Shown here piece after piece: positions 6,497 to 45,088 of a stretch of 54,241 bases of DNA. The notes beneath the pieces are model-generated. The model did not search any database and was not told where the DNA came from. It was given only the letters and a program-made list of their open reading frames with translations. The position numbers were made by a program, and so were the translations under genes. Location: positions 1-54,241 of IMG/VR virus record IMGVR_UViG_3300022074_000054. One strand, written 5' to 3'. Position 1 is the stretch's first letter. Each line of letters starts with the position of its first letter. The stretch comes from a virus.

Positions 6497-6550
6497 ACCG
6501 TGCTATAAAGGGGTTGCCAGTTTCATACTGATTCCTCCCTTTAGACTTGG

Positions 6551-6584
6551 AAGGGGTAACGAAAGTTGCCCCTTTCTTTTTTTT
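6551..6584 (+). terminator. Intrinsic terminator after the capsid gene
   Basis: The hairpin AAGGGGTAAC-GAAA-GTTGCCCCTT has 10 paired positions with one U-G pair and a GNRA loop, followed by TCTTTTTTTT. This is a strong rho-independent terminator that separates the head operon from the following tail-side genes. Confidence 0.92.
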
Positions 6585-6598
6585 CGGTAATAATGTAT

Positions 6599-6651
6599 CC
6601 TGTCAATATCCCTGACAGCCGTATGGTACGGCTGACATAACCCACGACAGG
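6599..6651 (+). promoter_or_regulatory. Structured leader with alternative hairpins over the ribosome site
   Basis: CCTGTC (6599-6604) can pair with GACAGG (6646-6651), which covers the Shine-Dalgarno AGGAG at 6649-6653. It can instead pair through CTGTCA/TGACAG (6600-6605 with 6613-6618). A third perfect hairpin, CAGCCGTA-TGG-TACGGCTG, occupies 6616-6634. These options are partly exclusive. A TAATAATGT stretch at about 6588-6596 could be a -10 box. Confidence 0.55.
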
Positions 6652-6659
6652 AGATACAT

Positions 6660-7121
6660 ATGGGTACTACAACTTTTTCCGGCCCTATTAAAGCTGGAAC
6701 CATCAAAGCAACCACGGGTACTTCCCTCGGTACAAACATCAAAAACACTGGTCAAGTCGTAATGGCGCAGACTTTTGCCGTCGATCTTTCTGGCGGTGCG
6801 GTAGCGGCTCAAGTTACGAATGTTGTTATTCCAGCAAACTCACAAATTATTGATTGTGTGATTGATGTAATCACCGCAGCAAACGCCTCTACCAACTTGA
6901 GTGTTGGTGATACGGTAGGCGGTGCAGCCACCATTCTAAACACTTTTGCAAGCGGAACCACCGCGGGTCGTAAGTATCCGACTACGGAAGCTGGCGGCAC
7001 CTTAGCGTGGGAAGACACAGGAACTGCGGACATTCGTTTGACCGTTACGGCTTCTGCGGCAACAAATGCTGGAGAAGTACGTTTTACTATCTTGTACCAG
7101 CAAAACAACAACCTCGCGTAA
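6660..7121 (+). CDS. Putative beta-rich virion structural protein
   Basis: 153 residues, Thr/Ala/Gly/Val-rich with few charges and predicted almost entirely beta (VTNVVIPANSQIIDCVIDVIT, ADIRLTVTASAATNAGEVRFTILYQQ). It has an AGGAG ribosome site inside a structured leader and is the first gene after the capsid terminator. The composition fits a secreted-like capsid decoration or head-fibre protein, but no specific family was recognised. Confidence 0.6.
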   Translation: MGTTTFSGPIKAGTIKATTGTSLGTNIKNTGQVVMAQTFAVDLSGGAVAAQVTNVVIPANSQIIDCVIDVITAANASTNLSVGDTVGGAATILNTFASGTTAGRKYPTTEAGGTLAWEDTGTADIRLTVTASAATNAGEVRFTILYQQNNNLA

Positions 7122-31872: not shown

Positions 31873-32232
31873 ATGGCAAACGTATCGGAAAACACAAACC
31901 TAACAATCCCACTCAAGAATATCTTGGGTATGATAGCCTTTACCTCTATCGCAACCATGGCGTACTTCACCATCGAATCGCGGCTCACGGCTCTCGAACA
32001 TCAACTCGAAATGACAGACGTGGACATTAAAGCGAACACAGAGTTCCGTATTCTCTGGCCTCGCGGACAGCTTGGCGCACTACCCGCAGACGCTCGACAG
32101 GACATGCTGCTTGAGGCTTTGGACAGGGATGTAAATGAGTTACGTGAATTACAAGAAAACGTTCATGAACTAACAATACGAATTGGTACAATCGAAGCTC
32201 TTCGCGATCAGCAGGAAGAGAGCAAAAACTAG
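31873..32232 (+). CDS. Small membrane-anchored coiled-coil protein
   Basis: 119 residues. A hydrophobic segment (residues 16-32, ILGMIAFTSIATMAYFT) is followed by a long helix and the conserved-looking FRILWPRGQLGALPADARQD and a C-terminal coiled coil. One N-terminal membrane anchor with a periplasmic or cytoplasmic helical domain is predicted. From memory this is frequent in marine phages; a spanin or superinfection role is possible but unproven. Its TAG stop shares CTAG with the stop of the leftward helicase gene. Confidence 0.62.
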   Translation: MANVSENTNLTIPLKNILGMIAFTSIATMAYFTIESRLTALEHQLEMTDVDIKANTEFRILWPRGQLGALPADARQDMLLEALDRDVNELRELQENVHELTIRIGTIEALRDQQEESKN

Positions 32233-33677
32233 CGCAACCAGTCCTGCACTTCTTCGCCCAATACCTTGCCCGCTATGTCAATCTTGTTGCGTAACGCTTC
32301 CAGTATCTTTTCATCTATGGTGCCCGGAGACACTAGGTCAATGTACGTGACCTTGTTGTCTTGACCAATACGGTGCGCCCGGTCTTCCGACTGCAACCGT
32401 ATTTCTAAGTCATAGCTGTTGCTGTAATACACAACAGTGTTAGCCGCAGTCAATGTGATCCCATAACCGCCTGTCTTTGGCTGCCCCACAAAGAACCGCA
32501 GCGGGTGGTCTTTCTGTTGAAAGTTTTCCACAATTTGCTGCCGCTCGTCTTGCGGTGTAGCCCCGTAGTAGGTTGCGACCGATTCGGGCCCGAACCGGTC
32601 GCGCAGGGCAGAAGCCACCTGTTGGATGTCGTGTGTATACGTCGCCCAAATGATAGCTTTTCCCTGTAACTCTTCAGTAACGTCGAGCAGTTCGTTCAAA
32701 CGGTTGCTCTTTACCGTCTGCACCTCTCCGTCATCTGGCTGCAAATGTCCGCAGCAAATCTGTTGTAGTCGCATGATTTGTGTCAGTACGCTTGCAGTCG
32801 TGGCCAACTCGCCACTCTCAAGCTTGGCAAGCGCCAGCTTCTTCATCTGCACGTACAGTTTGACTTGTTCGGGTGTGAGGGCGACTTCCCTTCGAGTGTA
32901 AACCTTGACTGGAAGATCAAGGCAATCGACTTTTAGAACACGGTTACTGAACCGATCTAACTTTTCAGAAAGTTCGTCTAAGCGTCGATAGCCCACAATC
33001 TGCTGGAAGCTGCGGTGACCCATTTGGCGTTTCTGCACATTGGCGTACCGCGCTTGGAAAGCAAAGTAGCTGTTAAAGCCCAAAGCCTTTTCGGCAAGGA
33101 AGTTACATTGGCTGAACAGGTCCATAGGGCTCTTGGTAATAGGGGAGCCGGTCAATATCCGGCGGTATTTAGCCCGTTCCTGCAAAGCGATGATGTTCTT
33201 CGTCCTCGCAGCCTTCCTATTCTTTATTGTAGTTGATTCGTCAATAATCACAATGTTGTCGGGATTCTGGTACAGATACGCAACGGCTGCCTCTGTCCCG
33301 CGTTGTGATGAGAACGCTTCGATGTTCATTACGAAGACCTTCAATTTTGGATCACGGTCCACGATGAAATCTTTCAGGTCACTTTCATAACGCTGCGTCT
33401 TAGCCGGTATCCAGCGCATCACCTCTCTTGGTATACGCTTGGGCAAATGTATCGGCACCTCACCCTTGACCCAGTTGTCATACACCCCTTTCGGCGCAAC
33501 GATCAACGCGGCTTTTATCTTGCCTGCCTCGTACAAAGCACCCATGGTATCTATAGCTACCTTCGACTTTCCCGTGCCCATCTCCATAAGCAACGCATAG
33601 TATTCCGCGGCCCACGAGTCTTCAAAAGCTACCCGTTGGTGGTCGTATGGTTGGGTCTCATATTCGTAGCCAGTCAT
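32229..33677 (-). CDS. SNF2-family SF2 helicase
   Basis: 482 residues. Motif I is LMEMGTGKSKVA (near residue 31). Motif Ia is LIVAPKGVYDNW. Motif II reads DEST (VIIDESTTIKN) rather than DEAH. Motif III is TGSPI. The second domain has IIWATYTHDIQQ, GYGITLTAA and motif VI QSEDRAHRIGQ. It should be an ATP-driven dsDNA translocase acting in replication or recombination. It is one of only two leftward genes and meets the rightward structural operon end to end. A promoter facing left is present at 33716-33743. Confidence 0.9.
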   Translation of the reverse strand: MTGYEYETQPYDHQRVAFEDSWAAEYYALLMEMGTGKSKVAIDTMGALYEAGKIKAALIVAPKGVYDNWVKGEVPIHLPKRIPREVMRWIPAKTQRYESDLKDFIVDRDPKLKVFVMNIEAFSSQRGTEAAVAYLYQNPDNIVIIDESTTIKNRKAARTKNIIALQERAKYRRILTGSPITKSPMDLFSQCNFLAEKALGFNSYFAFQARYANVQKRQMGHRSFQQIVGYRRLDELSEKLDRFSNRVLKVDCLDLPVKVYTRREVALTPEQVKLYVQMKKLALAKLESGELATTASVLTQIMRLQQICCGHLQPDDGEVQTVKSNRLNELLDVTEELQGKAIIWATYTHDIQQVASALRDRFGPESVATYYGATPQDERQQIVENFQQKDHPLRFFVGQPKTGGYGITLTAANTVVYYSNSYDLEIRLQSEDRAHRIGQDNKVTYIDLVSPGTIDEKILEALRNKIDIAGKVLGEEVQDWLR

Positions 33678-33702
33678 TGTTGCCCCTATTTTTTAAAATC
33701 GC

Positions 33703-33730
33703 TTGACTTTAAAATTGTATAAGATATTAT
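33703..33730 (+). promoter_or_regulatory. Rightward promoter of the replication operon
   Basis: TTGACT (33703-33708), a 16-base spacer and TATTAT (33725-33730). The -10 and following bases (ATATTATCCTA, 33724-33734) recur exactly at 41229-41239 in another predicted promoter. The promoter overlaps the leftward one face to face. Confidence 0.75.
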
Positions 33731-33743
33731 CCTAAATTGTCAA
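33716..33743 (-). promoter_or_regulatory. Leftward promoter of the SNF2 gene
   Basis: Read on the minus strand: TTGACA (33743-33738), 16 bases, TATACA (33721-33716). It lies across the rightward promoter, so both -35 boxes sit at the outer ends and the -10 regions cross. Simultaneous polymerase binding should be impossible. Confidence 0.65.
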
Positions 33744-33782
33744 GGCCCAAACGGTGCCTTTAACCACGAAAGGAGAAACACG

Positions 33783-34367
33783 ATGAGTGATGACCTAAAG
33801 AGACTGATGGAGCAGGATTTTGAAAATACTGCTGCTTCGTCCGTTGATAAAATTGACCAGCAAGGGCTTACTTCGGTAGCTGCGTTGGCCAGAACAATCC
33901 GTGACAAAGAAGAACGAATCTCTTTCCTTGAGCAGTCGCTCAAAGAAGAGAAGAAGACTTTGATGAAACTCACGGATGAAGAAATGCCGTCGATGCTTGC
34001 AGAGATTGGTATGTCTTCATTTGCACTAGATGACGGTTCAACCGTCGAGGTTAAACAAACCTATGGTGCTTCCATTCTAGTTGATAAACGTCCCGAAGCT
34101 TACGAGTGGCTACGTGATAACGGATACGATGACATTATTAAAAACACTGTCGCGTGTCAGTTTGGCCGTGGTGAGGACGATCAAGCTAGTGCCTTTGCTG
34201 CTTTCGCGCAACAGCAAGGTTATGTTCCCGACCAAAAGACAGAGGTTCACCCTCAAACACTTCGTGCGTTCGTCAAAGAACGTTGTGAAGCGGGAGAGGA
34301 TTTTCCGATGGAATTGTTTGGTGCATGGGTAGGTCAACGCGCAGTTATAAAGCGAGGAAAAAAGTAA
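33783..34367 (+). CDS. Conserved replication-operon protein of unknown role
   Basis: 194 residues with an AAAGGAGAAA ribosome site. Residues 40-75 are coiled coil (KEERISFLEQSLKEEKKTLM). Then come DEEMPSMLAEIGMSSFALDD, EAYEWLRDNGYDDIIKNTVA, the FGRGEDDQ block and VHPQTLRAFVKERCEAGEDF. From memory such proteins lie directly ahead of ssDNA-binding proteins in many phages. Its stop overlaps the next start (TAATG), which suggests coupled production and perhaps a direct partner of the SSB-like protein. Confidence 0.7.
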   Translation: MSDDLKRLMEQDFENTAASSVDKIDQQGLTSVAALARTIRDKEERISFLEQSLKEEKKTLMKLTDEEMPSMLAEIGMSSFALDDGSTVEVKQTYGASILVDKRPEAYEWLRDNGYDDIIKNTVACQFGRGEDDQASAFAAFAQQQGYVPDQKTEVHPQTLRAFVKERCEAGEDFPMELFGAWVGQRAVIKRGKK

Positions 34368-41271: not shown

Positions 41272-41463
41272 ATGGATACAACACGCTGGAAAAGCATTCT
41301 CGTCCCGCGAGAGGTGTACGAAGACATAAAAGAGCTTTCAAAAAAGGAAGGTCGAACCATTGGCGGGCAGCTACGGCTGGTTTTCGAATGGTACATGGAG
41401 ACTTCAAATGACAGAGGCGCAAGGGACAACGGGTCAGTTCCACAAAAATCTGATAAGAAATAA
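41272..41463 (+). CDS. Ribbon-helix-helix DNA-binding protein
   Basis: 63 residues from the ATG at 41272, behind GAGG. The TTG at 41212 falls inside the promoter and is rejected. WKSILVPREVYEDIKELSKK is the ribbon plus first helix, and GRTIGGQLRLVFEWYM the second helix, as in CopG/Arc-type regulators. It probably dimerises and binds a palindromic operator, perhaps its own promoter or the palindrome at 41141. It overlaps the zinc-ribbon gene. Confidence 0.7.
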   Translation: MDTTRWKSILVPREVYEDIKELSKKEGRTIGGQLRLVFEWYMETSNDRGARDNGSVPQKSDKK

Positions 41464-42175: not shown

Positions 42176-42520
42176 ATGAAAGACCTCATTACTATCGAAG
42201 AAGTGTGCCAAGTGGCACGAGTCAGCAAGCCAACCATCTACCGGAAGGTAAAGCTTGGCGAGTTTCCTGCCCCAGTCAAAGTACCAACAACCGCGACCCG
42301 CGGGCCAAAGATGGTCAACCGATGGGAAAAAGGCGCAGTCATAAACCATTGCATTCAAAACGTGCAGAAGGCAGCAACCGCCGCAGTCAATATCCCACCA
42401 GAAGACGTAGACGCCCACTGGCACACGGAACCCGAACCATGGTACGTGGAACACAAGTTTGTTCTCCAAGCCATGATTGGCGGGATGTTTGCAGCACTGG
42501 CCGTCTGGTTCTTTAAATGA
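42176..42520 (+). CDS. AlpA/excisionase-like HTH with C-terminal membrane anchor
   Basis: 114 residues. Residues 4-50 are an AlpA/MerR-type winged HTH: LITIEEVCQVARVSKPTIYR with KVKLGEFPAPVKV as the wing. Residues 92-113 (HKFVLQAMIGGMFAALAVWF) form one hydrophobic span. A DNA-binding domain tethered to the membrane would be unusual for a phage; it could localise DNA or sense membrane state. An ACGGAGAA site precedes it. No integrase is present, so a classical excisionase role is unlikely. Confidence 0.7.
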   Translation: MKDLITIEEVCQVARVSKPTIYRKVKLGEFPAPVKVPTTATRGPKMVNRWEKGAVINHCIQNVQKAATAAVNIPPEDVDAHWHTEPEPWYVEHKFVLQAMIGGMFAALAVWFFK

Positions 42521-42827: not shown

Positions 42828-42856
42828 TTGACACGTATGCGATAATATGCTAAAGT
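42828..42856 (+). promoter_or_regulatory. Promoter with GCGATA box
   Basis: TTGACA (42828-42833), 17 bases, TAAAGT (42851-42856). The spacer holds TATGCGATA (42836-42844). The leader then holds GGTTAACC and a GGGGGA/TCCCCC hairpin. It shares AATTAGCTTG with the promoter at 45820. Confidence 0.65.
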
Positions 42857-45041: not shown

Positions 45042-45053
45042 ATGTCGTATAGT
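45024..45053 (+). promoter_or_regulatory. Promoter overlapping a terminator
   Basis: TTGACG (45024-45029), 18 bases, TATAGT (45048-45053), followed by TATGCGATA at 45053-45061. Confidence 0.55.
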
Positions 45054-45088
45054 ATGCGATATATCTTATACAACTACGGGGGCAAACC

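Follow-up and report, generated by a model that had tools for sequence, protein, structure and literature searches.

How is a single leftward gene transcribed when it stands among rightward gene blocks, and how does its promoter share space with the one for the opposite direction? This question is raised by the stretch of DNA analyzed here (the window), a virus record of 54,241 bases from a phage related to the HTVC023P-type pelagiphages. In the ORF list, all the long ORFs taken as genes are rightward with one exception, the gene of an SNF2-type helicase, which diverges from the replication operon with 105 bp between the two. As the helicase gene is the single leftward gene amid rightward blocks, a leftward promoter is required, and only these 105 bp are free to hold it. 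The first gene of the operon (PHROG 2378 / DUF7307) is followed by PHROG 2402 and by the genes for primase, helicase, and DNA polymerase. We consider it rather likely that the gap carries conserved overlapping divergent promoters for a sigma70-type polymerase of the host, and that these promoters partition initiations between the two directions and do not act as an on/off switch.

A search of genome contigs with the helicase for a host found no relative, and a literature search found no paper on an SNF2 helicase in a pelagiphage. A replication origin at the turn of the GC skew was considered and rejected, since the dip at 32–34 kb corresponds to the reversed gene; a slight second dip lies at 42–44 kb.

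Predicted promoter elements in the 105-bp gap

The features of the locus, by position in the window, are as follows.

32229–33677, minus strand: SNF2-type helicase gene (PHROG 62 DNA helicase, E 7e-123), the sole long leftward gene recognized
33683–33687, minus strand: AGGGG, a probable ribosome-binding site for the helicase, from the sequence
33703–33708, plus strand: rightward −35, TTGACT, which with 33702 forms the left arm CTTGAC; TTGAC is invariant in the aligned clade
33707–33709, minus strand: predicted leftward transcription start, from the −10 position
33714–33719, minus strand: leftward −10, TACAAT, with an 18-nt spacer, the preferred register (promoter score; register compensation in relatives)
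33716–33721, minus strand: leftward −10, TATACA, with a 16-nt spacer, the register of the first-pass annotation; the final T (TATACT) is present in about one third of relatives
33718–33726, plus strand: TATAAGATA, one of the TATRMGATA sites of the window (pattern search; enriched in related contigs)
33723–33731, no strand: inner dyad GATA-T-TATC, overlapping the rightward −10 and conserved in clade 1
33725–33730, plus strand: rightward −10, TATTAT (promoter score; TAWTAT conserved in clade 1)
33737–33739, plus strand: predicted rightward transcription start, from the −10 position
33738–33743, minus strand: leftward −35, TTGACA, conserved; 33739–33744 is the right arm GTCAAG
33742–33760, plus strand: 5'-proximal hairpin of the predicted rightward RNA, AAGGC-CC-loop-GG-(bulged U)-GCCUU
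33764–33775, plus strand: conserved CCACGA and the replication operon ribosome-binding site AGGAG (alignment A1)
33783–34367, plus strand: PHROG 2378 / DUF7307 gene that opens the replication operon (profile matches)

The rightward promoter read by the first-pass annotation, TTGACT-N16-TATTAT, is exact (33703–33708 and 33725–33730), as are the outer inverted repeats CTTGAC (33702–33707) and GTCAAG (33739–33744). Its leftward promoter, TTGACA-N16-TATACA, is also exact in its letters (33743–33738 and 33721–33716), but TATACA lacks the final T, and TACAAT with an 18-nt spacer provides a better −10. When sigma70-type promoters were defined by −35 and −10 hexamers with a spacer of 16–18 nt and a −10 that has A2 and T6, both directions belonged to this type: the leftward TTGACA-18-TACAAT scored 11/12, the top promoter score in the window, and the rightward TTGACT-16-TATTAT scored 10/12.

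The segment 33702–33744 holds the only overlapping opposed sigma70-like pair in the window in which each promoter scores at least 10/12. Dinucleotide shuffling of the window produced such a pair in 4 of 300 rounds, and 5000 shuffles of the 105-bp gap produced none. In contrast, an exact 6-nt inverted repeat with a 20–60-nt spacer arose in 1225 of 2000 gap shuffles and is not unusual alone, and the inverted repeat therefore carries weight only through its conservation.

Divergent promoter pairs have long been classed as back-to-back, overlapping, or face-to-face. At the sequence level, the two window promoters are overlapping divergent promoters with an overlap of 17 nt, and they resemble that class in their divergent genes and overlapping polymerase sites. 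The term “face-to-face” in the first-pass annotation probably misleads. With starts placed ~7 nt beyond each −10, the predicted leftward and rightward starts lie ~28–30 nt apart and diverge, and the RNAs would not overlap, unlike those of the face-to-face class.

RNA polymerase has a footprint of roughly −55 to +20. Because both −10s sit between the −35s, a polymerase on either promoter would cover the other. From the overlap geometry it is almost certain that a single polymerase would be bound at a time, as previously annotated, and the geometry together with this footprint makes exclusive binding very likely. Exclusive binding would not by itself make the two directions exclusive over the course of an infection, and the mutually exclusive expression proposed in the first-pass annotation is not supported.

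Conservation in close and distant relatives

Two scans of viral contigs, which covered the best 80 of 259 and the best 80 of 228 relatives, yielded 160 loci. With the window's own, 161 loci were read, and both genes were found in 157 (the helicase match was missing at L089, L112, L145, and L150). The 157 loci collapsed to 80 distinct intergenic sequences, the window's included, because a contig often carried several of the loci. In this set, drawn from the best 80 of 259 and the best 80 of 228, the helicase gene and the operon were divergent in 80/80 representatives, and the exact CTTGAC...GTCAAG was retained in 76 of the 80 distinct sequences (the exceptions were L088, L080, L032, and L033), all conservation counts being inflated by kinship among the sequences. 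The inner spacing of the arms was 31 nt in 73 sequences, 38 nt in three, 30 nt in two, and 29 nt in two; the rightward spacing would become 14, 15, or 23 nt in seven of the 80. The two halves of the arrangement are asymmetric. In the window, the spacers differ and the inner dyad is centered on 33727 as against 33723 for the outer repeats, and in relatives it is the rightward −35 that shifts (7/80), while the distance from the core to GTCAAG is constant in the variants inspected.

In clade 1 (a profile of 46 sequences, effective number 10.5), the information was concentrated in three islands, TTGAC, GTATAAGATAWTATC, and TTGTCAAG, the first two separated by a near-random spacer. The clade-2 profile comprised three sequences, with short flanks dropped. 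The rightward spacer is longer by 7 nt in L038, L039, and L042, where TATAAG lies 16 nt from TTGACA, and the rightward −10 may therefore have moved in these loci. L080 reads GTTGAC...GTCAAC and carries a hairpin-like insert in the leader, ahead of the usual bulged hairpin. We make no claim for the outer C...G pair as a symmetric contact: L080 swaps both sides, L088 breaks the pair, and the clade of 023Pt_psg01 (the 023Pt clade) is asymmetric there.

The −10 elements were then compared with those in shuffled core interiors (300 rounds). A leftward −10 (A2 and T6, at 16–18 nt) was present in 62 of 68 distinct cores (shuffled mean 13.6, maximum 25), a rightward one in 49 (mean 13.4, maximum 26), and both together in 47 (mean 2.6, maximum 7). 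In 17 of the 68 cores, including most of the TATAAGCATATATA sub-clade, no hexamer at a rightward spacing of 15–19 nt has A2 and T6; clade 1 has a textbook rightward promoter, and that sub-clade a poor one. We compared where the leftward −10 has its closing T in the 48 cores of clade 1 whose arms are 31 nt apart: 28 have it solely in the 18-nt register, 15 solely in the 16-nt register, three in both, and two in neither. At least one of the two registers was thus closed in 46/48, and the two cores with neither compare with 10.7 expected by permutation, a count as low being reached in 0/5000 permutations. This register compensation, observed in related sequences that are not independent, strongly supports selection on a predicted leftward promoter and is the best evidence for it. 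The assignment of the opposed promoters to the SNF2-type helicase and the replication operon is supported, and the elements and their tight packing are kept in the relatives. On sequence grounds, the promoter pair is probably real and conserved.

More distant helicases, those of 023Pt_psg01, HTVC027P, and DSL-LC04, are 53%, 47.5%, and 55% identical to the window's, respectively. The HTVC023P-type pelagiphages HTVC027P and 023Pt_psg01 have this gene pair in this divergent order. 023Pt_psg01 keeps TTGACA...TGTCAA with spacing 27, and TTGAC-N26..28-GTCAA was found in 55 of 60 distinct regions around its relatives (of the other five, two end at contig ends, two have TTGAC only, and one has neither). 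In this clade, 28 of 42 cores match TATAAT perfectly at the leftward −10, and a rightward −10 occurs no more often than expected by chance (12/42 vs. a shuffled mean of 14.7). The HTVC027P clade showed the strict pattern in one of 55 distinct regions (of its 80 loci, 2 were too short). It has TTTACT and AGTCAA around a central TATATA-like box, and HTVC027P itself keeps AGTCAA as a possible leftward −35, with overlapping −10s. The pattern for this clade missed 21 of 42 distinct sequences, mostly those in which the −35 extends into the start codon of the helicase gene; of the 21 sequences that it did match, L412 is fortuitous and lies within a gene. In some members, e.g., L389, an inverted repeat CTTTCTA...TAGAAAG surrounds the central box, and an SD-like AGAAAG would therefore stand in both divergent leaders. 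In the DSL-LC04 clade, the promoter pair was found in 0/7. Since the distant clades share the gene order and differ in geometry, the order predates the exact geometry.

These clades bear on a real, if somewhat doubtful, alternative, namely that the packing is a by-product of genome compaction, with two ordinary promoters placed in a 105-bp gap and an overlap that has no regulatory meaning. It accords with the other solution of the gap in the HTVC027P clade, where the best −10 hexamers overlap by at least two bases in 11 of the 21 pattern-matched sequences, and with the DSL clade, which does without such a pair; what argues against it is that the −35 spacing is rigid within clades (31 nt in 73/80 from the best 80 of 259 and of 228, and 26–28 nt in 55/60) in a gap that is partly free to vary. 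Overlapping divergent promoters are already known, and selection on the packing itself is hard to show. Many related phages nevertheless offer natural variants (fixed spacing, the leftward register swap, and clades with other geometries), so that regulation by overlap and mere compaction can be directly tested against each other.

The TATRMGATA motif and the proposed sharing of initiations

The site TATAAGATA in the promoter core is one of six TATRMGATA sites in the window, all of which are noncoding (noncoding sequence as drawn makes up 10.8% of the window). Six sites were reached in 0/500 shuffles of the noncoding stretches. Because the pattern had been picked after the window sites were seen, we tested nine related contigs, which contained 45 matches vs. 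8 for the reversed pattern; one sequence in the site matrix is of the other core type. By this sequence comparison, the promoter core resembles a motif enriched in related phage genomes, which is a new observation. In the related contigs, several sites lie at other promoter-like places and some in coding sequence. By hand count, among 88 TATNNGATA sites in 10 records, 28 have GC and 18 have AA, and 8 of the 18 AA sites are the promoter-pair site itself.

Elsewhere in the window, the TATGCGATA/TATAAGATA sites at 42836, 45053, 45062, 45838, and 47345 are intergenic and near promoter-like sequences. Positions 45052–45071 form a GTATNNGATATATCNNATAC dyad, and the relative L495 has two copies 10 bp apart. 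The window also encodes an RHH_5-like small protein (41272–41463; E 0.00019, below the Pfam cut-off), a possible phage regulator, and an HTH_17 / AlpA-like protein (42176–42520) that passes the Pfam HTH_17 cut-off.

An operator in the core, where a phage regulator sitting over both −10s would repress or gate both directions and the other TATRMGATA promoters would belong to the same regulon, is in our view unlikely. The noncoding placement of all six sites, their excess over shuffles and over the reversed pattern, and the two candidate binders are in its favor, but the pattern was chosen after the fact, the promoter-pair core mostly has AA where other sites mostly have GC, some of the relatives' sites fall within coding sequence, and the constraints on a −10 could yield the identical letters. 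A regulator on the core would block both directions and therefore do the opposite of a switch.

In the reading we prefer, a partition of initiations between overlapping promoters, the leftward TTGACA-18-TACAAT would give the helicase mRNA and the rightward TTGACT-16-TATTAT the replication-operon mRNA. Their relative strengths, plus any regulator, would set the initiations per direction, and a rise in one direction could depress the other. The bidirectional promoters of E. coli, as described by Warman and colleagues (PMC12825309), are similar in that opposed sigma70 promoters leave no room for two polymerases and often lie between divergent genes. They share a −10, and the distance between their starts is mostly 10, 18, or 23 bp, whereas the assigned −10s of the phage pair (33714–33719, or 33716–33721, vs. 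33725–33730) share no base and its predicted starts are farther apart, at ~28–30. The phage core does hold a palindromic TAWTAT shared by both strands, without a well-placed leftward −35. According to the same source, bidirectional promoters are common in E. coli, and the two directions compete only if one of them is strong, the basal activity of five such promoters being too low for it (PMC12825309). Partition is therefore the modest and likely reading; by this analogy, switching would depend on a regulator or on strong promoters. A literature search found no paper on overlapping or face-to-face divergent promoters in a bacteriophage.

HTVC027P, according to the accessible text on this phage (PMC12753301), encodes no RNA polymerase and uses the host's throughout, and its transcriptome has early genes that are all of unknown function; neither an annotated helicase nor a primase is therefore in the early class, as far as that text goes. 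These data weigh on the two-state switch proposed in the first-pass annotation, in which the helicase and the replication operon would be expressed in separate phases of infection. It appears very unlikely: the overlap makes simultaneous binding very improbable and the arrangement is conserved, as a switch would have it, but we found no element that locks either state, bidirectional promoters at basal activity compete little in the E. coli work available to us (PMC12825309), helicase and operon plausibly cooperate in DNA replication, and the early class of HTVC027P is as just described (PMC12753301).

The leader of the predicted replication mRNA

Under the preferred partition between two promoters, the rightward RNA would start at or near the right arm, and its 5' end would immediately form a hairpin upstream of the ribosome-binding site, a structure that may shield the mRNA or adjust its translation. 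In an alignment of 47 leaders, picked out of 58 distinct ones, 99.7% of 329 cells were paired and compensatory changes occurred in 4 of 7 pairs; neither figure was reached by any of 500 shuffles. GTCAAG doubles as the start of a conserved, covarying 5' hairpin of the predicted replication mRNA, a finding that is new. The thermodynamic fold of the window copy alone is unremarkable (z −1.1 to −1.4). A covariance model of the leader (R1) had a single confident match within the window, the leader's own copy, and among 16 loci of other clades none was convincing (best E 0.3). The hairpin is a candidate new RNA element, the window copy of which is below every Rfam cut-off.

A far-reaching combination of these observations would be a three-layer control node, conserved in a widespread marine phage group: a 43-bp cassette with mutually exclusive promoters, a shared core that is bound by a phage regulator and marks its other promoters as well, and a right arm that is at once leftward −35, rightward start, and 5' arm of the leader hairpin. 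We think this improbable; if true, it would tie together helicase supply and the transcription and translation of the replication operon. That GTCAAG is kept only as the start and 5' arm of the hairpin, with the leftward promoter an accident, is hardly credible: the leftward −35 site does share its final two bases, 33742 and 33743, with the hairpin, but TTGT upstream of it is about equally conserved, the leftward −10 shows register compensation, the 023Pt clade keeps GTCAA without such a hairpin by the leader model, and the helicase needs a leftward promoter.

Two other structures were rejected. A hairpin CCUUU/AAAGG that would mask the ribosome-binding site was 84.3% paired, with covariation not beyond that of shuffles. 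The leader resembles the Rfam family RF03012, Mu-gpT-DE RNA, in having a hairpin followed by CCACGA.AGGAGA and a start codon, but it is not a second copy, as it scored 16.8 bits against a cut-off of 49 and the leader model misses the copy at 6610. A literature search found no paper on the mu-gpT RNA motif in a phage. The copy at 6610–6662 is a strong match to RF03012 (66.8 bits) that ends at the start codon of the gene at 6660 and is preceded by a terminator-like hairpin at ~6549–6590; it looks like a 5' leader, whereas the Rfam type is sRNA gene. In related contigs, CCACGANAGGAGA mostly marks the Mu-gpT-DE leader, often with a TATAAT-like box just upstream.
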